A DNA stretch of 64,000 nucleotides from positions 1-64,000 of the forward strand of contig MKVQ01000042.1 in NCBI GenBank assembly GCA_001899635.1, written 5' to 3'. Source of the DNA: Myxococcales bacterium 68-20. Its GTDB lineage: Bacteria > Myxococcota_A > Polyangia > Polyangiales > Polyangiaceae. Positions 48,921-59,412 of this stretch are shown piece by piece; positions within the stretch are counted from its first letter, which is position 1; every line of letters begins with the position of its first letter. The notes under the pieces were generated by a model. The model had not been told where the DNA came from. It saw only the letters and a program-made list of their open reading frames with translations, and made no database searches. Position numbers and translations under genes: made by a program.

Positions 48921-50723
48921 CTAGTTTACGACCGGGACCTGCGTGTCGTTGATCGGCCGGCTGCCCATGCCACCGGCGTAGCCGTAGCTCGCGCAGTAGC
49001 CCGTTCCCCAGACGGAGACCGAGAACGGCCCGGTGCTCCGCGCCTCGTGCCGGCCGTAGCCGCACGTGCCTACCCCGAACGGCTTCGGAACGCCGCCCTC
49101 GGTCACGTGGACCCACGCGTACTCGTACTGTCCCGCGTTACCAAGCGGCTTCCAGTCGGTGATCTCACCGGCGCACTCGACCGTGACGGGGTGAAATCCC
49201 TTCGTCGTCCTGCGACGCACGAGAGTGAGGGTCGTCTCCGGATACGTGTAGTCCGTAAAGAAGACGTATCGGTCCAGGAACTGGTCCGACGGGACGACGT
49301 TGACGAAGTCCGGATCGCCGAGGTTGTTCCCGCCGACCATCTGCGCGCCCGTCATGAACACGGCGGCGTAGAACGGGTGCTGGGAGTCCTGCGACCTGAC
49401 GGTCACGAGCTGGTCGGTCATGAAGTTCACGACCTGACCGGCTTCGAGCGTCTCGGGCGCACCGAGGGGGCGTGCGGGATCGTACGTCAGCTTCGTGCCG
49501 TTCACGGCGCCGACGAGGCGCCACGGGACGGTCTCACGTGCCTCGATGTTCGTGCCGACGCCCGAGCCGATGCGCGGCCGATACGGCACGAGCGCATATT
49601 CGCTGCCCCACGCCGAGATAGGCGGGATCTGCTGCTGCGTCGCATCGCACGCCTGCTGGCTCGCCGGGATGTACGTGCACTCCGAGCCGCCGAACACCCC
49701 GACGGGCTTCGTCGTCTCGATCGGACTACCGCTCGTCTCCTCGGGCTGCGTAATCTGCAAGACCTCGCCACGCGAGAGCGTCCACGTCTGCGTAGCGCCC
49801 TTGGCGGTCCCGGTCACGCCGTTGCCGTCGTAGACGTCCACGCCGGGGCGCATTCGCACCTCCGTGTCGTCTTCGTCGGCGACGATCTGGAGCGTCGGCG
49901 AGCCAATCTTCGACGCGGCCCAGGCGTTCACCGCGAGGTAGTTCTTACCCCACGAAGAGATCGGCAAGAGGAGGGTCGCTGTCGGGAAGTACGAGTCGGC
50001 TCCACCGTACGGATAGATCGAATACGCGCTCACCGGCGCGTCAGTCGTGAGGCGGAAGGCGCGCGTGCGGGCCGTTCCGTGGGCGATGGGATCTCCTGCG
50101 AACGCGGGGACGACCGTCGGCGGACATGGGGAGTGCGAGCTACTTCGCCCAGGGCTCGGCCCCTGCGCCAAGAAGACGAGCGCCACCTTGCCCGGTGGAA
50201 GCGGCCCTTCGACACGCGTGTACGTGATGGTGCCGCCAGTCTTCTCGGCGAAATAGGTCGAGGCGGTGATATCGAGCGGCTCGGCCCCGAGCGCTGCAGA
50301 GATCGTCACCGGCCGGTCCCACGTGTTCGCGATCATCGCCGCGAAGCACGACCCAGCGCTGCCAGAGAGGCTGTTGTCGGGAGGCAGCGTCCGGAACGAG
50401 CAGCCGATCGAGCCCTTCGAAAGCTCCGCGCTCGTGCAGGGATCGACGCAGTTGCCGTCACCGCATCCCTCGTCGGGGCCGCACTCTTTGACGACCTCCT
50501 CTTCGCCCTCGCAACCTCGGAGAACCTTCTTGAGGTCGCGGGAGCATCGAAGCCCCTGGCACGAGGGCGGCGGCGGCGGGCTCGCGTCCTGATCGACGAG
50601 CCCCGGGCCGGGCGGCGCGTCACCGAGGAATTGTCGTTCGCTCGCCGCGCACGCGACGGCGGTGAGCGCCATCGCCCCGGAGGCGACCAGCAGAGCACGA
50701 AGCATGGGAGGCACGGTTCGCAT
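48921..50723 (-). CDS. IgGFc-binding domain lipoprotein
   Basis: A 600-residue surface lipoprotein (TAVAC, Cys25). After a Pro-rich linker and a Cys-rich part (CQGLRCSRDLKKVLRGC; about 40-85), the long C-terminal region matches the IgGFc_binding N-terminal-like domain family: SCFAAMIANTWDRPV, AYSIYPYGG, ATLLLPISSWGKNYL, EVLQIT and SGSPI. These beta-rich domains occur in large adhesive proteins. ATG 50723 is chosen for GAGGG five bases ahead. It is the last gene of the ECF-led block and starts 8 bases after the RCC1 gene stop. Confidence 0.82.
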   Translation of the reverse strand: MRTVPPMLRALLVASGAMALTAVACAASERQFLGDAPPGPGLVDQDASPPPPPSCQGLRCSRDLKKVLRGCEGEEEVVKECGPDEGCGDGNCVDPCTSAELSKGSIGCSFRTLPPDNSLSGSAGSCFAAMIANTWDRPVTISAALGAEPLDITASTYFAEKTGGTITYTRVEGPLPPGKVALVFLAQGPSPGRSSSHSPCPPTVVPAFAGDPIAHGTARTRAFRLTTDAPVSAYSIYPYGGADSYFPTATLLLPISSWGKNYLAVNAWAASKIGSPTLQIVADEDDTEVRMRPGVDVYDGNGVTGTAKGATQTWTLSRGEVLQITQPEETSGSPIETTKPVGVFGGSECTYIPASQQACDATQQQIPPISAWGSEYALVPYRPRIGSGVGTNIEARETVPWRLVGAVNGTKLTYDPARPLGAPETLEAGQVVNFMTDQLVTVRSQDSQHPFYAAVFMTGAQMVGGNNLGDPDFVNVVPSDQFLDRYVFFTDYTYPETTLTLVRRRTTKGFHPVTVECAGEITDWKPLGNAGQYEYAWVHVTEGGVPKPFGVGTCGYGRHEARSTGPFSVSVWGTGYCASYGYAGGMGSRPINDTQVPVVN

Positions 50724-50731
50724 GGGGGCCC

Positions 50732-52096
50732 TCACTGGAATACGACGGTCACCGGCGTGAGCTGAGCGCTGTTGCCGCGCGTCCCCTGACCGAGCTCACC
50801 GTTGGGGTTGCCGCCCCAGCAGACGACCTTGCCGCCCTGCACGAGGGCACACGTCGCGGAGTTGCTCGTGGCGACCTGGACGGCGTGCTCTTCGAACGCC
50901 GTGGCCTTGCCGAAGAAGGCGGTGAGCAGGCCCGAAGTGCCTCGCCCGAGCTGCCCGAGCCGATCGTCGCCGGTGCACTGGATCGAGCCGTCGGTCATGC
51001 GCACGCACGTCGTGTTCGCGGAGACGGCGACCTGCTGTGGGAAGGCCTTCTCTTTTTCGTCCGTGACGACCCCGGTGCGCGTGGGGAAGCGCTCCATGTC
51101 GGGAAGGCCCGTTCCGAGCGCGCCCTGCCTGTTGGTGCCCCAGCAGAAGACTTCGCCGTCGGCGATCGCGCACGCGTGGGCAGGACCAGCGGCGAAGCTC
51201 GTGACCTTGCTCAAGGTCGGGATGGGGAACGGGACCGGGTCGGGGTTGATCGAGCCCTCGCGTCCCGAGACCGCGCCCCAGCCAAGGAGCCGGCCGTCGT
51301 TCGTGAGCCCGAAGACCGACGTGAGCCCGCCACCGGTGCGGGTGACCTGGAACCCGTCGAGGTCGGCGGCGCCGGGGCCGCCCGCGGTGATCGCTCCAGC
51401 GTCCGGCCGAGCGAGCTGCTTCTGGTCGTTGCCGCCCCAGCAGTAGGCGTCGCCGCCCGCGCCGAGCGCGCAGACGCTCCGATGGCCGACGTCGACGCGA
51501 GCGACCTCCGCGTCGAGCGCGACGTCGGTAGGCGTGGGATGTCGGAGCGTGTCGACGAGCGCGGGTGCCTCTCTCAGCCCGAGCTGCCCCTGCCGATTGC
51601 CGCCCCAGCACAGGACGCCTCCGTCGGCGTTGCGCGCGCACGTAGCGAACTCCGCCGCGCTGATCTGCGTGGCGTTCGACACGCCCACGACGGCGGTCGG
51701 GCGGAAGCCCGCATCGGCGCCTCCGTCGATGTCGCCGATGCCGAGCGCCCCCCTGCTGTTGTCTCCCCAACAGCGGATGGTGCCGTCGTCGAGGAGCGCG
51801 CAGAAGTGACTCTCTCCGGCCACGAGCTGCGTCGCGCAGGGAGTCGTCGCGCAGATCACGGCTTCATCCGAGGCGTCGTAATCGGGCTTCGGTGGCGGTG
51901 CGGCGTCGGCCTCGGCGTCGCTCGTCCCGCCATCGCTCTCCTCCACCACGGGCGGAAGCGAAGCCTCGGGCGTGCTCGCCGAGTCTGGCGTCTCGACGAA
52001 CGACTCGCGAGGATCGTCGGAGCTGCACGCGATGAGCGCTGCGGTGGAGACCGACAGCACGGACGAGAAGAGAAGGAACGCGCGAAGACGGATCAT
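50732..52096 (-). CDS. RCC1-repeat lipoprotein
   Basis: A 454-residue lipoprotein (LIAC, Cys24) with an acidic linker and then RCC1-type blades, each with a xxHxCAL...G-xxCWGxNxxGQLG pattern: GESHFCALLDDGTIRCWGDN, GGVLCWGGNRQGQLG, GGDAYCWGGNDQKQL, DGEVFCWGTNRQGALG, GSIQCTGDDRLGQLG, GKVVCWGGNPNGELG. This should fold as a seven-bladed propeller on the outer surface and bind a partner. The ATG at 52096 has AAGGAG about 9 bases upstream. The preceding gene's stop lies 14 bases away. Confidence 0.85.
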   Translation of the reverse strand: MIRLRAFLLFSSVLSVSTAALIACSSDDPRESFVETPDSASTPEASLPPVVEESDGGTSDAEADAAPPPKPDYDASDEAVICATTPCATQLVAGESHFCALLDDGTIRCWGDNSRGALGIGDIDGGADAGFRPTAVVGVSNATQISAAEFATCARNADGGVLCWGGNRQGQLGLREAPALVDTLRHPTPTDVALDAEVARVDVGHRSVCALGAGGDAYCWGGNDQKQLARPDAGAITAGGPGAADLDGFQVTRTGGGLTSVFGLTNDGRLLGWGAVSGREGSINPDPVPFPIPTLSKVTSFAAGPAHACAIADGEVFCWGTNRQGALGTGLPDMERFPTRTGVVTDEKEKAFPQQVAVSANTTCVRMTDGSIQCTGDDRLGQLGRGTSGLLTAFFGKATAFEEHAVQVATSNSATCALVQGGKVVCWGGNPNGELGQGTRGNSAQLTPVTVVFQ

Positions 52097-52110
52097 TGTT
52101 CGATGCTCCT

Positions 52111-53322
52111 TCAAAGCGACTCAGGAGCGCCTTTGTGGAGGGCGATGCCTTCGCCGACGGCCCAGACGTCGCTGGTGCCCGTGCCCCAGATCGCGTTGAA
52201 CGTCTTGATGACCGGGAGGAGGTCATCGAGCGCGATCTGCCCGATGCTCCATTTCACGCCGTCCCAGTGGCGAAGGCGCCCGAAGATGCCGCCGAGCCAG
52301 ATGTCGTTCGCGTCGGCGCCCCAGACGGCGATGTGCGCGTAGTCGACCGTGTCGTACTTGGTCCAGGTGAACGTCGCGCCGTCATCGGCGCTCGCGCCCC
52401 TGTAGTACGTCCCCGCTGGACCGAACCCGAGGAGGAAGACGTCGGTCCGCGAGATCGAGGCGGCGCCCCTGAAGTTGCTGCTCGCGGCGGCTGGGCCGGC
52501 CGAACTCCAGGTGAAGCCGCCAGCGCCATCCGGCCTCCGGTGGAGCGCCCGTCCGCTGCTGTATCCGGTATCACCGGCGACCCACACGTCGTCGGCCCCC
52601 GTTCCCCAGACCTTGCTGAAGCGACCGGGGAACTCGGTCGAGACGGGATCGCTCGTCCAGTCCGTATCCGGGTCGGGGCCCGCGCCAGGCCCCGCGTAGT
52701 GAAGGATCCGACCGCCGTTGAAGGAGCTCGCCGGCACGGCCGTGTAGCCGACGGCCCAGACGTCGGCAGCACCGGTACCCCAGATCGAATACACGGGCAC
52801 CGAGGCCGGGACCGCGGTCCACGTGATCGTGCTCGGGCTCGTCCCGGTCCCGTGGAGGAGACCATTCGCTCCGCCGACCCAGAGGTCCGTCGGGCCACTT
52901 CCCCAGACAGCATGCAGCGCGGTTCCGGCCGCGTGGCTCTGGACCCAAGCCTTGCCGTCCCAGCGCAGGATGTTGCCTTGCGTGCTGACGGTCCAGACGG
53001 TGCCTTGCCCGTCACCCCACACGTCGCGCAGCGTCTGAGCGTCCGGCACCACCGTGTGGCACCAGCCCTGCTTCGTGCACGTCGGCTTCGTGACCGAGGC
53101 GTCGGAGGCGTCGGAGGCGTCCGCGCCCGCGTCGGTCGGGCTCGGATCCGCATCCGGTACGCTGCCGTCTTCGTCGGAGGGGATCGGCGAAGGCTGAGTG
53201 CCAGAGTCCTCCTGCCCGTCAGGTCCGTCTACGACGCGGACGCCGCTCGCATCGCTGCATGCGACGGCGACGGGAACGAGCGCCGTCGCGAGGACGATGA
53301 GTCGGAGAATCGCGGCCTTCAT
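52111..53322 (-). CDS. Beta-propeller-like surface lipoprotein, copy 2
   Basis: A 403-residue lipoprotein (VAVAC, Cys22), with an Asp/Ser/Ala linker and Cys pair (PTCTKQGWCH), then six or more repeats centred on VWGxGxxDvWxxG: LRDVWGDGQGTVWTV, HAVWGSGPTDLWVGG, YSIWGTGAADVWAVG, SKVWGTGADDVWVAG, AVWGADANDIWLGG, NAIWGTGTSDVWAVG. These make a propeller. It is paralogous to the next gene upstream, with which it shares an ATGA start/stop overlap. AAGGAG precedes its ATG. Confidence 0.82.
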   Translation of the reverse strand: MKAAILRLIVLATALVPVAVACSDASGVRVVDGPDGQEDSGTQPSPIPSDEDGSVPDADPSPTDAGADASDASDASVTKPTCTKQGWCHTVVPDAQTLRDVWGDGQGTVWTVSTQGNILRWDGKAWVQSHAAGTALHAVWGSGPTDLWVGGANGLLHGTGTSPSTITWTAVPASVPVYSIWGTGAADVWAVGYTAVPASSFNGGRILHYAGPGAGPDPDTDWTSDPVSTEFPGRFSKVWGTGADDVWVAGDTGYSSGRALHRRPDGAGGFTWSSAGPAAASSNFRGAASISRTDVFLLGFGPAGTYYRGASADDGATFTWTKYDTVDYAHIAVWGADANDIWLGGIFGRLRHWDGVKWSIGQIALDDLLPVIKTFNAIWGTGTSDVWAVGEGIALHKGAPESL

Positions 53323-54578
53323 TGTGCAGCTCCTTGCGCTCGCGGCTTGGGGCCCGAGAAGTGAAGAACGATCCCATCCCCGACGGCCCAGACGTCGTTC
53401 GGGCCGCTGCCCCACACGCCGCGGAGATGCGGCTTCGGACCGACGGCGAAGGCGGCCGTCGAGGTCGTCCAGTGCGTGCCGTCGTAGTGGAGGAGCATTC
53501 CGTGATCGCCGACGGCCCAGATGTCGTTCGGGCCGGTCCCCCAGATCGCGTTGAGGTGTTCCTTGGTGGGCGACGCGACGATGGTCCAGCGCTCGGCGCC
53601 GGTCGTGTAGCGCCGGATCGTCCCGCCCGCGCCGACCGCCCACACGTCGCCGGGACCGCTGCCCCACACCGAACGGAGCTCGCCACTGGCCTGGCTGTCG
53701 AACGCCGTCCAGTTGGGAACGCCTCCATCCCCCGCCGCGATGCCCTTCGTGTGAAGCGCCGCGCCCGAAGGTCCGACCGCCCAGATGTCCTCCGGTCCGC
53801 TCCCCCACATCGCCGAGATCGACGGGCAGGTTCCGGTCGTGGGGCAGTTCGACATGGGCTTCCAGGCGGCGCCGCCGTCGACGATGACGCTCCGCCAGCT
53901 GCTCTCCTGCGGCTGACCCGACTTCTGGGTGAAGTTCTCTCCGCTGATCCAGACGTCGCTCGCCGAAGTTCCCCAGATCGTCCGGAGGAGCTTGCCTCGC
54001 GATCCCGACACGAGCGCGTAGTCCGCGATGGGCGGGAGCGGCGACCAGATCGCCGTGCCGCCCGAGAATCCGGTCCCGTGGAAGATCACGCCCGGAGAGC
54101 TCGCGATCCACACGTCGTTCGGCCCGCTGCCCCAGACCGCATAGAGCGTCTGAGTCGTCGGCGTCGGGGCCGGCGTCCAGTCGGCGCCGTTCCAGTGGAT
54201 GACCCTCCCCTGAGCGCCCACGACCCAGACGTCGTTCTTTCCGCTCCCCCAGACGGCAGCGAGCCCGAGGCGCGGGTCGAGGTTCGTCTTCGACGGGCAC
54301 CACTCGGCTTCGTCGCAGGTGAGCTCGTGCGTCGTGCAGGTCTCGGCGTCGCCCTCGCATCCGCCGTCGGCGGCATCGTCCGCCCCTGCGTCGCTCGCCC
54401 CGCCGTCGCCGTCCGACGGGATCGTGCTGGTCCCAGCGTCGGTGTCATCGGCGACGCTGGGCTCTTGGGCCGACTCGGCGCAGCTCGCAGAGATCATCAT
54501 GATCCCGCCGAGCGTTGCGAAGCCGAGCATCGCCGTCGCGATGGGTTTGCGGTGCTGACCACGGACCGAAGCCTTCAT
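53319..54578 (-). CDS. Beta-propeller-like surface lipoprotein, copy 1
   Basis: A 419-residue paralogue of the preceding entry, with signal and lipobox SASC (Cys33), Asp/Gly/Ala linker and repeated VWGSGxNDVWxVG blades (AAVWGSGKNDVWVVG, YAVWGSGPNDVWIAS, RTIWGTSASDVWISG, SAMWGSGPEDIWAVG, RSVWGSGPGDVWAVG, NAIWGTGPNDIWAVG, RGVWGSGPNDVWAVG). Several repeats keep a Cys-rich insert. ATG at 54578 is chosen for the signal peptide. The stop overlaps the start of copy 2. Confidence 0.82.
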   Translation of the reverse strand: MKASVRGQHRKPIATAMLGFATLGGIMMISASCAESAQEPSVADDTDAGTSTIPSDGDGGASDAGADDAADGGCEGDAETCTTHELTCDEAEWCPSKTNLDPRLGLAAVWGSGKNDVWVVGAQGRVIHWNGADWTPAPTPTTQTLYAVWGSGPNDVWIASSPGVIFHGTGFSGGTAIWSPLPPIADYALVSGSRGKLLRTIWGTSASDVWISGENFTQKSGQPQESSWRSVIVDGGAAWKPMSNCPTTGTCPSISAMWGSGPEDIWAVGPSGAALHTKGIAAGDGGVPNWTAFDSQASGELRSVWGSGPGDVWAVGAGGTIRRYTTGAERWTIVASPTKEHLNAIWGTGPNDIWAVGDHGMLLHYDGTHWTTSTAAFAVGPKPHLRGVWGSGPNDVWAVGDGIVLHFSGPKPRAQGAAQ

Positions 54579-54622
54579 GGGCTCTACCTCTTCACCGGTT
54601 ACGCGGCGTCGTCGGGGGATGC

Positions 54623-55876
54623 TCACTTCGTCACCGGATCGCCGCCATCGCACTCGACCATGTGGCACTTGCCGGCGATGCAGGGCTGACCGGCGCCGGT
54701 GTCACAGCGGTTTCCGCACGCTCCGCAGTTGGCGCCGTTGATCATGAGATTCGTCTCGCAACCGTTGAGTGGGTTGCCGTCGCAATCACCCCAGCCTTCT
54801 TCGCACTCGTAATCGCAGAAGCCCTTCCGGCAGACCGGGGCGCCGTGGGCGCTGGCGCTGGTGCCGCCTGGGCACCTACGCCCGCAGACCCCGCAGTTCG
54901 CGGGATCGGTCAGCAGGTCGTTGCACGTGAGAGCCGTTCCCGTTCCGCACAGCGCCTCGTTCGGAGCGCAGCCGCACCTCGGCATGCTCGTACCGTCGGC
55001 AATGCAGGGCACGCCCGGGGCGCACTTGTTCCCGCACGTCCCGCAGTTGTTCGGATCGGCGGAGGTGTTGGTCTCACAGCCGTCGAGCTCGACGTCGTTG
55101 TTGCAGTCGGCCCACGTCTGCTTGTAGCCGCTCTTGCAGCGGAGCTTTCCGCACTCGCTTCCGACGCAGCCGTACTCCATGTTCTTGGGAGGCGGCCCGG
55201 CATCGGCGGGGGGTGCACACTTGTTGTCGCACGATCCGCAACGGGAGTCGTTGCTCGAGAGGTCGAAGCAACCGGTGGCGCCGTTCGAATCACACCAGGT
55301 CAGTCCGCTCTTGCACCCGCACTTGCCGGCGAGGCACGGCTGGCCGTCCGGACACTTGTTCCCGCATGCGCCGCAGTTGTTGGCGTCGAAGGAGATGTCG
55401 ATCTCGCAGCCGTCGTCGACGAGCCCGTTGCAGTCCTTGAAGTAGTGGCTCGCCTCGGGGTTGAGGCTGATCTCGGGAACGCACTCGCGCGCGCACGCCC
55501 CTTGGACGCATCGCGTGGCCATGTGCAGGGAGCCGAACATGTCGGGCGGGCACTCGTTCCCGCACGCTCCGCAGTTGGCGTTGTCCGTGAGAAGGTTGTT
55601 CTGGCACTTGTAGCCAACCGAGCCGTAGCTCGGACACGTCGCGTACGGGTACGGGCACTCGGTGCCGATGCAAGCGAGCTCAGGCTCTGGATCGGGCAGG
55701 GAGGCCGCGCCGTCGGCGCCCGCTTCCGGCGTGGGCGGCACGAAGCTCGGAGGCCCCTCGACGCTATCCGATCCTGCGTCGAGCTGCGCGACGACGTCAA
55801 CACCGTCGGTCGCGCACCCGGCATACGCGAAAAGCGTCACTGCCAGCACGCTGCCCACCAGCCAACTTCGCTTCAT
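54623..55876 (-). CDS. Cys-rich NCGxCG-repeat lipoprotein
   Basis: A 417-residue lipoprotein (AYAGC, Cys21). It contains about six copies of a unit like DxxNCGxCGxxCxxGxxC, for example DNANCGACGNECP, DANNCGACGNKCP, DPNNCGTCGNKCA, DPANCGVCGRRCP, NGANCGACGNRCD, plus units without NCG. The even Cys spacing implies disulfide-braced small domains, a common myxobacterial outer-surface design of unknown ligand. It is the first of five consecutive lipoprotein genes, 44 bases from the next. Confidence 0.82.
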   Translation of the reverse strand: MKRSWLVGSVLAVTLFAYAGCATDGVDVVAQLDAGSDSVEGPPSFVPPTPEAGADGAASLPDPEPELACIGTECPYPYATCPSYGSVGYKCQNNLLTDNANCGACGNECPPDMFGSLHMATRCVQGACARECVPEISLNPEASHYFKDCNGLVDDGCEIDISFDANNCGACGNKCPDGQPCLAGKCGCKSGLTWCDSNGATGCFDLSSNDSRCGSCDNKCAPPADAGPPPKNMEYGCVGSECGKLRCKSGYKQTWADCNNDVELDGCETNTSADPNNCGTCGNKCAPGVPCIADGTSMPRCGCAPNEALCGTGTALTCNDLLTDPANCGVCGRRCPGGTSASAHGAPVCRKGFCDYECEEGWGDCDGNPLNGCETNLMINGANCGACGNRCDTGAGQPCIAGKCHMVECDGGDPVTK

Positions 55877-55905
55877 GTGACGTCCTAGTAGCGTCAGGGC
55901 TACGA

Positions 55906-55919
55906 ACGGATCGATCCGT
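55906..55919. promoter_or_regulatory. 14-bp perfect palindrome in the gap before the lipoprotein run
   Basis: ACGGATCGATCCGT lies in the 60-base gap between the secreted barrel-like gene and the Cys-rich lipoprotein gene. A run of six A follows on the plus strand, so on the minus transcript the U-run precedes the palindrome and it does not look like a terminator of these genes. An operator or internal promoter element is possible. Confidence 0.4.
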
Positions 55920-55936
55920 CACGAAAAAAGGTACCG

Positions 55937-57076
55937 CTAGGGGACCGCGATGCCGAGCAGGAGGAGCGGTCGCACCGTCCACGGAGCGAGCAGAAGCGTT
56001 TGGGTCTCGCCACGCGCAACCGCGAACGAGCGCACGAACGGGGCGACGTCGACGGCGAGCTCGAGCTCGAGCACAGGCCGATTGGCAATCATGAGCGGAA
56101 CACGACCGAGGACTCCGGCGCGCATGACGGGGTCGACACGCGAGACGGGGGTGAGCGTCGCATCCACGACGTGAACGAGGCCGGGATCGGCGCGTACGAC
56201 GTCGACGCCCCCGCCGAGAGTCGCGCGCAGATCGAGCGGTGAGCGGATGACCTGAGCGACAGCGGCGAGTCGCAGCGCCCCGGACTCGACCCGGAGCGTG
56301 ACGGGACCGGAGGCCGCCTGCATGGGGAAGCGGTACTGCCCCGAGAGCGTCACGCCGAAGACGCGACGGTCGAACGGGCGCTCGAGCGAGAGAGCCACGA
56401 CGGGCCCGTGCTCGATCGCGTTGTTCGCATATCCACCGATCTCGTAGGCCACGCCGAGGCCGAGCGCGATCTCCTCGCGAGGCGGGCGGCCCGCAGGCGC
56501 CGCGAGCTTCACGCGATCGGGCGACGGACGCGGGCGCTCGGCTTCGCCGACAGACGTCGCTGGAGCCTCGGGCGCAGGCGCCGGCACACCGAGCTCGACC
56601 CGTGCTTCCTCGCGGCTCACGCCGATCTGCCCTCCATGAAGGAGCGCGTCCACGGCCGTCTGCAGCGCCGCCATCGTCGCTTCGCGCGCGATCTCGACGC
56701 GTCCCGCGCGCGGAAAGCGCCGAATGAGGACGCGCGATCCGGAGCGATCGGCGACGTAGAGGATCGTCTCCGACGGCGACGTCGAGTCGATCCACACGCG
56801 CGCGACCATGCCCGCTTCGCCTTCTTCTGCGGCGACGACCTCGTCGGGGCGCACCGAACCGCTCCGACTCGTCTCTGCGCGAACGCCGAGCCGCTCGAGC
56901 TGCTCGACGACGCTGGCATCGATGATCGCCGCTTCGTTGTCGTCGCCGGCGACGATCACCTTCGCGGTCGACGGCCTCGCGATCGCGGGCTCGTCACGTG
57001 CGCTCGCCCGCGTCCCACCACACAACGTGGCGAGCACGGCGCACACGAGGGTCAGACGAGAGAGCGCACGCCGCAC
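55937..57076 (-). CDS. Secreted protein with beta-barrel-like C-terminus
   Basis: A 379-residue protein with a GTG start and a cleavable signal peptide (to about residue 27, ASA-R). Residues 30-155 form an alpha/beta region with a helix-rich end, then a Pro/Ala linker with conserved charge, and from about 200 a series of alternating strands (IALGLGVAYEIGGYA, RRVFGVTLSGQYRFPM, ATLGGGVDVVRA, ELELAVDVAPFV) ending LLLLGIAVP, compatible with an outer-membrane barrel. No family recognised. It lies 44 bases after the membrane/TPR gene and 60 before the Cys-rich lipoprotein. Confidence 0.65.
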   Translation of the reverse strand: MRRALSRLTLVCAVLATLCGGTRASARDEPAIARPSTAKVIVAGDDNEAAIIDASVVEQLERLGVRAETSRSGSVRPDEVVAAEEGEAGMVARVWIDSTSPSETILYVADRSGSRVLIRRFPRAGRVEIAREATMAALQTAVDALLHGGQIGVSREEARVELGVPAPAPEAPATSVGEAERPRPSPDRVKLAAPAGRPPREEIALGLGVAYEIGGYANNAIEHGPVVALSLERPFDRRVFGVTLSGQYRFPMQAASGPVTLRVESGALRLAAVAQVIRSPLDLRATLGGGVDVVRADPGLVHVVDATLTPVSRVDPVMRAGVLGRVPLMIANRPVLELELAVDVAPFVRSFAVARGETQTLLLAPWTVRPLLLLGIAVP

Positions 57077-57120
57077 ACCGATAGATTATTCGCTACCGGC
57101 GCGATAGTGGACGCCCGACG

Positions 57121-57957
57121 TCAGGGTTGAGTCGAAAGCCGCTGTTTTGCGTGAGGCGCGAAGAGCGAGCTCGGGTACGCGGCGAGGAGCGCCTCCCAGG
57201 CACGCCGTTCCTCTTCACGGCGACCGAGCCCCTCGAGCGCGCTCGCGCGCCCGGCGAGCGCGTCCTCGCGGAGCTCGAGCGCCCCCGAGGCGAGGTAGCG
57301 GTCGTACTGGGCGAGCGCGGCGTTGGCTCGACCGTGATCGAGCTCGAGCCGTCCGAGCGTGACGTAGGACGTGGAGGCCTCGGGCGAGCGCGGATGCAGC
57401 GTCTGCAGCTCGCTGTAGAGCGAGCGCGCCATCGCGACGTCGCGCTTGCGGCGCGCATCGTTCGCGAGAGCGAAGATCTCGGCGGCAGAGCGCGTCTCGA
57501 CTACGCGCGCGGCCACGCGTGCAGGAGCGCTTGGCGCCGTGGGGAGCGACGAGACGTCGAGCGTCGGGACGCTCTCGTCCGGCGGCGGGCTCGCCTGCTC
57601 ATGCGCCACGCCGATCGGAGACGGAGACGGAGTCGGCTCCTCGAGCGAAGGCACCGCCGGCGCGGGCGTCGACACCTGCTCGTGGTGTCGGCCGAAGAAG
57701 GCCATCGCCGCCGCGGCCACGAGCAGCGTCGCGGCCGCCGCGAGCGGAACCCATGACCGAGGTCGAAGGACGGTCCGGCTCGCGGCCGGTAACCTTGCGT
57801 GCGCGGCGCGCCGCGCAAGCACCCGATCGGCGACCCGAGCGATCATCGCCCGGTCGCCGGACTGCTCCTCGTCCGCCGGCAGCGCGGCCATGAGCCGACC
57901 AAGGACGCGATCGGCGACCTCGTCCGTCGGGATGTCTTCTTCAGTGCTCATGCTCAT
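57121..57957 (-). CDS. Membrane protein with TPR-like C-terminus, possible sigma-factor partner
   Basis: A 278-residue protein with a cytoplasmic acidic N-terminal part (about 1-67), one membrane helix (about 69-88), a Pro-rich periplasmic linker and a C-terminal TPR-like region (about 165-275: AEIFALANDARRKRDVAMARSLYSELQ, YVTLGRLELDHGRANAALAQYDRYL). Its ATG is 17 bases inside the sigma-factor gene end. The arrangement is typical of an anti-sigma or regulator co-expressed with its sigma factor, but a zinc anti-sigma motif is absent, so the role is inferred from position only. Confidence 0.7.
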   Translation of the reverse strand: MSMSTEEDIPTDEVADRVLGRLMAALPADEEQSGDRAMIARVADRVLARRAAHARLPAASRTVLRPRSWVPLAAAATLLVAAAAMAFFGRHHEQVSTPAPAVPSLEEPTPSPSPIGVAHEQASPPPDESVPTLDVSSLPTAPSAPARVAARVVETRSAAEIFALANDARRKRDVAMARSLYSELQTLHPRSPEASTSYVTLGRLELDHGRANAALAQYDRYLASGALELREDALAGRASALEGLGRREEERRAWEALLAAYPSSLFAPHAKQRLSTQP

Positions 57958-58567
57958 CGACTTCCAGGAGCTCCGACAGCTCGGGATGGACGAGGATCCT
58001 CTCGCGCAGGGCTTGCTTCGCCGTCTGGAGCCGCCCTCGAACGGTGTTCAACGGGACGCCGAGGATCTCGGCGGTCTCCGCGAGCGAATGACCGAGAACG
58101 GCCGTGAGCACCAGCGTCTGCGCCTGCGCCTCCGACAGCGAGCCGAGCAGCTCGTGCAAGAGGCGCTCGCGGCGCCGCGCCTCGAAGGCGCTCCCCGGCC
58201 CCGGCTGGGTCTGATGGGCTTCGTCCGCAGCGAGCACTTCGAGCTTGCGACTACGCGTTCGCGAGTTGCGCAGCGCCTCGAGCGCGCGGAGCGTAGCGAC
58301 CCGTCGCGTGTAGTGACGAATCGAGCTCTCGCTTCTGAAGTCCGGCAGTCCGTCGAGCACGGCGATGAGCGTGTCCTGGAGAAGATCCTCGAGATCGGGA
58401 TGGCTGGCACCGAGCAGGCGACGGAGCGTCTTGAGCGCGACCGGACCGAGCTCCACACAAAGACGGCGCGCGGCGGCAAGGTCGCCATCGAGCGCAGCAC
58501 GGATCTCCCCCTCGAGGGGATCCGGCCCAGCGTGATGCATCGAGCGAGGCGCGGCCAATGCCAGCAT
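57941..58567 (-). CDS. ECF-type RNA polymerase sigma factor
   Basis: A 208-residue group IV sigma factor. Region 2 includes LEDLLQDTLIAVLDGLPDFR, with SSIRHYTRRVATLRALEAL; region 4 reads SEAQAQTLVLTAVLGHSLAETAEILGVPLNTVRGRLQTAKQALRE, the helix-turn-helix that binds the -35. It heads eight minus-strand genes. Its stop lies 17 bases within the next gene. It probably controls its own block. Confidence 0.92.
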   Translation of the reverse strand: MLALAAPRSMHHAGPDPLEGEIRAALDGDLAAARRLCVELGPVALKTLRRLLGASHPDLEDLLQDTLIAVLDGLPDFRSESSIRHYTRRVATLRALEALRNSRTRSRKLEVLAADEAHQTQPGPGSAFEARRRERLLHELLGSLSEAQAQTLVLTAVLGHSLAETAEILGVPLNTVRGRLQTAKQALRERILVHPELSELLEVDEHEH

Positions 58568-58722
58568 CCGTATACCTGGTAGCGTGAGGTCCCGAAACGG
58601 ATCGCCCGGGGAGCGAAAATCGTCGCCCCGGCTCGAACGGCCGAGCTTGGCGCATTGGAGGGCCGGCGGCCCGGCGCGACAAAGCTGGACGGAAAGCGCC
58701 GCGTTCGGGCAACGTCGGGCGA

Positions 58723-59412
58723 ATGCCTGAGTGTCTCGTCCTTGCTCCCACCTCCGATCCTCGTGTGTTCATCGCGCCCGACGGCACGCGCTGCTCGCCG
58801 CCGGACAGCTGGGCGTGCCTGCCCCCCGGCGACGCCGGGCTGACGCGCCGAGTGAAGCTCGCCGGGCCGTCCTGGTCGGTGATCGAGAAGCGGGGCCGGA
58901 AGGCGTTCTCGAAGGGCCTCTGGGCGCCGCGCGAGAACATCGAGTCGCAGCGCGCGGCGATCGAGGCCGAGCGGTCGACCGAGGGCTACGCGAAGAAGCG
59001 TCAGGCCGACGTCGCGCGACGCGAGCGAACACAAGCCGAGTACGTCGTGACGTTCGAAGCGGAGGTGGAGGGCTTCCTCCAGTTCTCGCCGAAGTGGGCC
59101 GAGCTTGGTCGCGCGATGGCCAAGCAGGTCGCCGCCCACGCCACTCCGGTTGGAAGCGGGACCGTGGCGCGCACCAAGCGCATCTCGGTCGCGGAGCGGG
59201 CAGAGGCGGCCGTCATCGCGTGGATGCGCCACCAGACGACGGCCTACGACCAGATGAAGATCCCGCGCATCGCCGGCAAGCGGCGCGAAGTGCGACGCGA
59301 GCTCGCGAGCATCTCGCGCAGCGTGCTCGACCTTCATCGTCGCGACGTCCCGCACGGGATCGCGGCCTGCCCGCTCTGTGCTGCGATCGTGAGCTCCGCC
59401 GCGCGCTCGTGA
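58723..59412 (+). CDS. DUF2293 domain protein
   Basis: A 229-residue protein. The C-terminal half contains AVIAWMRHQTTAYDQMKIPR followed by GKRREVRRELASISRSVLDLHR, the DUF2293 signature. The N-terminal part is specific, with a small Cys-containing region (GTRCSPPDSWACLPPG). A CPLC pair near the end may bind metal. Function unknown; the basic helices suggest nucleic-acid contact. It is divergent from the sigma-factor gene. Confidence 0.8.
   Translation: MPECLVLAPTSDPRVFIAPDGTRCSPPDSWACLPPGDAGLTRRVKLAGPSWSVIEKRGRKAFSKGLWAPRENIESQRAAIEAERSTEGYAKKRQADVARRERTQAEYVVTFEAEVEGFLQFSPKWAELGRAMAKQVAAHATPVGSGTVARTKRISVAERAEAAVIAWMRHQTTAYDQMKIPRIAGKRREVRRELASISRSVLDLHRRDVPHGIAACPLCAAIVSSAARS

Follow-up and report, generated by a model that had tools for sequence, protein, structure and literature searches.

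A repeated two-module cassette of sigma-factor signalling genes and predicted surface lipoproteins in Myxococcales bacterium 68-20

The window analysed here is a stretch of 64,000 nucleotides from Myxococcales bacterium 68-20 (contig MKVQ01000042.1, positions 1 to 64,000). At 48921-58567 it carries a cassette of eight minus-strand genes, encoding an extracytoplasmic function (ECF) sigma factor (S), a membrane protein with a tetratricopeptide repeat (TPR)-like end (T), a putative outer-membrane barrel protein (B) and five predicted lipoproteins: a cysteine-rich NCG-repeat protein (N), two propeller-repeat proteins (P1 and P2), an RCC1-repeat protein (R) and an IgGFc_binding protein (I). The first-pass annotation of this DNA reported eight genes in the same direction, with gaps of at most 60 bp and some overlaps, and this holds, the longest gap being 60 bp. 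Its suggestion that they form one regulated apparatus does not: the window cassette is one of approximately 115-130 paralogous copies in the same genome, and on the sequence comparisons below the cassette consists of two modules that evolve separately, X-S-T (signalling; X is a secreted protein, approximately 345 residues long, that precedes sigma in most cassettes) and N-P-P-R-I (cargo).

The copies, their order, the module structure and the reassortment among paralogues are documented at the level of sequence. Our preferred reading, to which we give a probability of about 0.55, is that in each copy an X-S-T envelope-signalling module would control the display of five lipoproteins, the cassette switching itself on, and that the modules have been recombined at the T|N junction.

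Repetition of the cassette within the genome

The source genome comprises 11.89 Mb in 52 contigs (numbered with the prefix C), with an estimated contamination of 4.2%. It contains 141 matches to PF17517, the window I gene among them, vs none in 14 control genomes. We examined 136 stretches of the genome, nearly all around PF17517 matches, by six-frame profile searches; the window proteins served as seeds for the profiles, except for X, whose profile was grown from genes preceding sigma. These stretches contain 130 distinct N genes (131 open reading frames (ORFs) before one duplicate was dropped). Upstream of them S is found in 122 cases, T in 122 and X in 106, while at least two propeller genes accompany 124, R 124 and I 128. 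The order S-T-N-(at least two P)-R-I recurs in 115 of the 130 cassettes, so that it is beyond chance and the block, as had been proposed, is a real unit with its own sigma factor. X stands before sigma as well in 98/130, and the exact order X-S-T-N-P-P-R-I with two propellers is seen for 93 of the 131 ORFs. In many cassettes the T-N gap is -4 bp. An apparent group of 31 cassettes without S and T was discarded as mostly a gene-calling artefact, as profile matches on six-frame ORFs restored most of these genes. The N-containing groups cover 1.18 Mb, or 9.9% of the genome, a span taken from a gene map whose overlap filters hid many S genes, whereas the gene counts come from the later profile mapping. 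Lipobox-like motifs near the start are present in 234/257 P, 114/124 R and 114/128 I proteins. The source genome has at least 150 sigma-70/ECF matches over the cut-off (150 of 280 candidates scored).

The copies are strongly diverged, with a median identity to the nearest paralogue of 0.48-0.70 depending on the gene and a median cargo identity of 0.34 over all pairs. The dN/dS ratio on close pairs (Nei-Gojobori; three pairs for X, 11 for T, and S pairs cut at 40) is 0.27-0.48, indicating moderate purifying selection. Such a large and diverged surface repertoire, with the module swapping described below, would also suit a variant-surface system, where few cassettes are on at once and the variation is between cells or in time (for example against phages or for the recognition of kin) and does not reflect induction by specific ligands. 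We consider this rather unlikely, as each copy retains its own sensor trio, not obviously needed for a one-at-a-time switch.

Cassettes lie at or near the ends of contigs C29, C40, C45 and C51, and the assembly may undercount them. Together with the estimated contamination, these positions would be compatible with an artefact of assembling or binning repeats, but the copies are too diverged for easy confusion, and the same order and orthologous cassettes recur in two other genomes, which largely excludes an artefact and leaves it a negligible chance.

Signalling and cargo modules reassort

Identity matrices were built for 115 cassettes, leaving out those that lack any of S, T, R and I or have fewer than two P, and gene trees for 99 of them (16 without one of the alignments were left out). 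Pairwise identities correlate at 0.35-0.41 within X/S/T and at 0.67-0.82 within N/P1/P2/R/I, and only at -0.01 to 0.08 across the modules. The cross pairs subjected to permutation (S-I, 0.025; X-N, 0.017) stay below the maxima of 99 permutations (0.101 and 0.065, respectively). The gene trees behave likewise: X, S and T share 19-22 strong splits, cargo genes share 24-35, and trees from different modules share 1-2. The joint X-S-T tree has 58 strong splits and the joint cargo tree 72, with one in common and 98-99% contradicted; label-shuffled trees have on average 0.08 splits in common (maximum 1). The sole common clade unites C48:540743 and C40:484856. These two look like a whole-cassette duplicate, because the DNA similarity of the same pair extends 1380 bp upstream of N.

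The same picture emerges from the closest copies. Where cargo identity exceeds 0.70 (34 pairs), the median signalling identity is 0.275 vs 0.276 for all pairs. Of the 71 pairs with aligned N DNA, 94% also align in the remaining cargo genes and 1-3% in X/S/T. In 95 close-cargo pairs the DNA similarity sets in at a median of 162 bp into the N match and breaks off at a median of 4 bp beyond the I match.

The independent evolution of the modules would also be expected if they were neighbours only, with X-S-T controlling something else and the lipoproteins using their own promoters. In two cassettes (C23:241946 and C44:197267) S and T are oriented away from the cargo, showing that the modules can stand divergently, and likewise in one locus of another genome (L165, see below). 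Moreover, six N genes, one of them at a contig edge, are accompanied by two P, R and I, with no X, S or T detected where expected. All three observations fit this explanation, but in 115/130 cassettes the cargo genes lie behind S and T in the same orientation, and the T-N overlap in many of them argues in the same direction; a mere neighbourhood is thus improbable.

Distribution in other genomes

Across 12 genomes of the genus the number of PF17517 matches ranges from 0 to 141, the maximum being that of the source genome; among its congeners, G003 has 45 (of 47 candidates scored) and G006 has 17. The full cassette was found in 11 of 14 loci sampled in G003 and in four of six in G006 (loci are numbered with the prefix L), one of the latter, L177, having X-S-T, then an extra RCC1 gene, then the usual cargo. 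The remaining G003 loci are L172 with one detected propeller, L165 with X, S and T directed away from the cargo, and L168 with cargo and no X-S-T; the remaining two in G006 have the IgGFc gene alone. None of 20 IgGFc loci sampled in nine other genomes (two of them congeners) carries the cassette. Thus, as regards conservation across Myxococcota, proposed as a check in the first-pass annotation, the eight-gene order was found in two congeners and in none of the loci sampled from these nine genomes.

The signalling genes have a wider distribution. X is present in 11 of the 12 genus genomes (E <= 0.001) and in 16 of 112 genomes of the phylum at 1e-10, 13 of the 16 belonging to the same class (18 candidates scored per genome). 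For T the count is 58 of 60 genomes of the family, although its TPR part may pull in unrelated proteins. Among 20 T loci sampled from 12 other genera (13 genomes), an ordered X-S-T is seen in 15, X-S without a called T in three, a divergent X in one and S only in one; the N-P-P-R-I block follows in none of these 20 loci, and other genes come after the trio. B is present in 12 of 98 family genomes at E 1e-6. In all of 18 B loci (window included) T adjoins B, S is seen in 15 (the flanks being short), and the genes form a same-strand S-T-B in 14 and a divergent arrangement in one. A contig search with N yielded 20 relatives, with 29-39% identity in the best segment. Within the family, X-S-T is common and leads other cargo; combined with the five-lipoprotein cargo it was seen only in this genus, among the loci sampled.

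Modules from G003 and G006 have their best matches mostly within their own genome rather than in each other, so the repertoire seems, from these sequence matches, to be older than the species split. Between species, signalling gene pairs have the same best own cassette in 37/47 cases and cargo gene pairs in 80/102. Swaps are visible in L162, L171 and L177, and whole-cassette orthologues exist in the congeners (e.g. L161, L163 and L174). Since many cassettes are kept whole between species and yet the paralogues are scrambled, swapping looks, at the sequence level, slower than the divergence of the sampled species.

The sharp bounds of the cargo block and the wide range of IgGFc copy numbers among the 12 congeners would be compatible with a mainly neutral or selfish amplification, in which N-P-P-R-I spreads by recombination behind existing X-S-T without copy-specific function. 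We regard this as unlikely, though it deserves some weight: 115 of the 130 copies have the whole set of S, T, N, two P, R and I, close pairs are under purifying, if not strict, selection, and whole cassettes are kept between species.

The window cassette

The genes of the window cassette are listed in Table 1. The number of overlaps is two or three, depending on the start codon of I: GTG gives a 4-bp overlap with R, while ATG at 50723 gives an 8-bp gap. P1 and P2 match no Pfam family above the cut-off despite clear WGSGPNDVWAVG-type repeats, and the match of N to NF041328 (MXAN_6577-like), 82.4 bits, is under the cut-off of 100; N resembles these proteins in its NCG/Cys-rich repeats and differs in this lower score. 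Near the start of all five cargo proteins there is a lipobox-like motif, read by eye from the sequence and not from a signal-peptide program.

Table 1. Genes of the cassette in the window, in the order of transcription; spacing is given relative to the preceding gene.
Gene	Position	Strand	Predicted product and matches	Spacing
S	57941..58567	-	ECF sigma-70, regions 2 and 4; PF08281 45 bits (cut-off 25.7), PF04542 36 bits (cut-off 24), TIGR02937 77 bits	
T	57121..57957	-	candidate membrane anti-sigma/sensor; sub-threshold TPR/BamD-like matches	17-bp overlap
B	55937..57076	-	secreted; modelled TolB-like N domain (36-161), Pro linker, OmpA-like 8-strand outer-membrane barrel (204-378)	gap 44 bp
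N	54623..55876	-	cysteine-rich NCG-repeat predicted lipoprotein; STIG1-like PF04885 34 bits (cut-off 24.1)	gap 60 bp
P1	53319..54578	-	predicted lipoprotein, WGSGPNDVWAVG-type propeller repeats; lipobox ISASC	gap 44 bp
P2	52111..53322	-	second propeller-repeat predicted lipoprotein; lipobox AVAC	4-bp overlap
R	50732..52096	-	RCC1-repeat predicted lipoprotein; PF25390 182 bits (cut-off 150), PF13540 136 bits (cut-off 22), 7 stretches	gap 14 bp
I	48921..50735	-	IgGFc_binding predicted lipoprotein; PF17517 361 bits (cut-off 25.6)	

Though a real unit, the layout first described in the window is that of an atypical copy. No X match precedes sigma, and the barrel gene B sits between T and N instead; still, a protein with a TolB-like domain and an 8-strand barrel, characteristic of the X-S-T family, adjoins S and T. 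The trio is thus the rare S-T-B form, with identities of 0.25-0.36 to the nearest S, T and barrel among the 115 cassettes. The cargo is ordinary: P1, P2, R and I are nearest to C48:680553 at 0.57-0.68, and N is nearest to C5:78345 at 0.55. By these identities the window locus is therefore itself a sensor-cargo hybrid, with a rare trio on common cargo. Its divergent neighbour, at 58723-59412, encodes a DUF2293 protein (70 bits).

Barrel proteins X and B

B has two strong matches in the source genome. The second (C47:5727-6731) belongs to an S-T-B trio without the five-lipoprotein cargo (L159:3935-7909, on C47), followed by a 243-aa predicted lipoprotein. Comparison of the B and X profiles gives a probability of 97% (E 1.2e-10) over 131 barrel columns, and one X is matched by the B profile over nearly its full length (E 4e-22).

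AlphaFold2 models of B (from an 18-row alignment) and X, with a mean predicted local distance difference test (pLDDT) score of 84.7 and 84.2, respectively, show the same architecture, in which a Pro-rich linker joins an alpha/beta N domain to an 8-strand barrel of about 175 residues. Both barrels resemble OmpA-class proteins (best rows at Z 16-18), the matches of the B barrel including 3dzm_A, 4rlc and 9fzd_A (VIA Z 18.0, 17.0 and 16.1). For the N domains, residues 34-147 of B match 7mx5_A (TolB) with Z 8.4 over 103 residues at 3.0 A, and the X domain matches the TolB N domain 2ivz_C with Z 9.1 over 98 residues at 2.6 A; these are middling scores, and the N domains were weakly tested in the fold searches. 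Thus, X and B are modelled as sharing a TolB-like N domain and an OmpA-like 8-strand barrel. The idea of B as an insertion unique to the window was dropped, as the profile matches and models point to a diverged X located downstream of T.

The T protein and the sequence upstream of sigma

T begins with a short basic stretch and continues with a single hydrophobic segment (by eye), a Pro-rich linker with an LP motif (VSSLPTAP) and a TPR-like C-terminus, whose TPR matches stay under the Pfam cut-offs in the window. Since the basic N-terminus of the window T lies ahead of the hydrophobic stretch, a periplasmic location is probable for the TPR end. Within the otherwise variable and probably periplasmic linker, alignment A2 (25 T proteins) has an invariant L138, followed by P139 conserved in at least 90% of the sequences. 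A loose LP motif occurs in 84 of 115 T proteins, a count with no chance control. This conserved Leu-Pro is a possible docking or cleavage site. In a Pfam scan of 25 T proteins at E up to 0.01 the matches are to TPR/YfiO and a small number of further families, with no FecR and no zinc anti-sigma family.

CGATTTT and related words were considered as a promoter and rejected: they occur in 41 of 108 stretches upstream of sigma (at most one mismatch; 13 exact), where by eye they look mostly like the coding end of X. The window has one exact copy of the enriched CGATTTT-type word upstream of sigma, though no X gene is there. The sequence GACGATTTTCG, at about 58610-58640 upstream of the window sigma, resembles a word enriched before other sigma genes.

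Discussion

In the mechanism that we propose, an outside event would alter the OmpA-like outer-membrane barrel (X, or B in the window), and its periplasmic TolB-like domain would then act on T. This membrane-spanning TPR protein, a putative anti-sigma factor, would hold sigma and release it on this signal; the freed sigma would transcribe its own cassette, so that the lipoproteins of that copy are displayed on the surface, possibly in a joint complex. Recombination at the T|N junction would give different sensor-cargo pairings in different copies. The barrel is better read as a part of the sensor than as a platform on which several scaffolds would be displayed together, as the first-pass annotation suggested, because the identity and tree data tie the evolution of X to that of S and T rather than to that of the lipoproteins.

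Several observations weigh against the reading as a self-switched cassette with two modules swapped between copies. A residual association of sensor and cargo remains, with mutual information of 1.43 vs 1.27 after shuffling (reached in 0/1000 shuffles), and cargo identity is 0.473 in the 23 pairs whose signalling identity exceeds 0.6, vs 0.344 overall. Between species, the best own matches agree across modules in 108 of 193 gene pairs, many cassettes being whole. Among 12 G003 cassettes the cross-module correlations are 0.04-0.41, with 0.15-0.48 within X/S/T and 0.72-0.87 within the cargo, and the modules are not clearly separated there. About a dozen IgGFc genes of the source genome lie outside cassettes. 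A lipobox-like motif is found in only 93/130 N proteins, with 126/534 for other genes, a control scored over a shorter stretch. Finally, T matches no anti-sigma family in Pfam (25 proteins, E up to 0.01), and words enriched in the 108 stretches upstream of sigma did not establish a promoter motif.

By analogy, the trio is best read as functioning in the manner of FecA/FecR/FecI signalling, with no TonB receptor. PMC9249621 and PMC11637429 describe Fec/Fox-type systems (FecA-FecR-FecI, FoxA-FoxR-FoxI) as having a barrel with an extra N-terminal periplasmic domain, a membrane-spanning regulator and an ECF sigma factor. The cassette has corresponding components, including an ECF sigma factor with PF08281 and PF04542 over their cut-offs. 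In contrast to a TonB receptor with its large plugged barrel, the cassette barrel is modelled as 8-stranded and OmpA-like, and no Pfam receptor matches B (E <= 1) or 24 X proteins (E <= 0.01). The N-terminal domains of X and B have no Pfam STN match, their best listed fold matches being TolB (Z 8.4-9.1). The regulator carries TPR and matched no FecR family in the Pfam scan; moreover, five-lipoprotein cargo and over 100 copies distinguish the cassette. As it differs from the Fec family in two defining features, receptor type and FecR domain, it is not filed there.

Two further comparisons are instructive. Bacteroidota SusC/SusD loci are present in many copies per genome, with a private ECF sigma/anti-sigma pair, an outer-membrane barrel and surface lipoproteins. 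The cassette is similar in copy number, private sigma and regulator, and the combination of a barrel with predicted surface lipoproteins, but its proteins have no SusC/SusD match, its lipoproteins belong to other families, and sensor and cargo reassort. The folds of the X and B domains, in turn, are like those of OmpA/OmpX-type 8-strand barrels and the TolB N domain, though among the listed matches the two domains match different PDB chains, and OmpA carries a C-terminal domain, unlike X and B with their N-terminal one.

No description of the cassette was found in searches of open-licence literature, in agreement with the initial remark that no described system of this composition was known; nor is it described in the available excerpts of PMC6403173, PMC8436480, PMC9249621 and PMC11637429. 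According to PMC8436480, 44% of the genes of Minicystis rosea are paralogous.

As a broader and more tentative reading, which we hold to be less probable than its negation, the cassettes may constitute a combinatorial receptor-display repertoire, with more than 100 privately sigma-switched five-lipoprotein complexes, whose sensor and display modules are swapped and which would recognise prey, kin or surfaces. Approximately one tenth of a bacterial genome is occupied by one repeated eight-gene device with reassorting regulator and product halves. The more than 100 X-S-T trios evolving together provide a natural experiment on the specificity of sigma factors and their regulators, and the cassette offers a concrete explanation for part of the excess of sigma factors and lipoproteins in the large source genome. 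It may also be a candidate molecular basis of recognition in this bacterial group.

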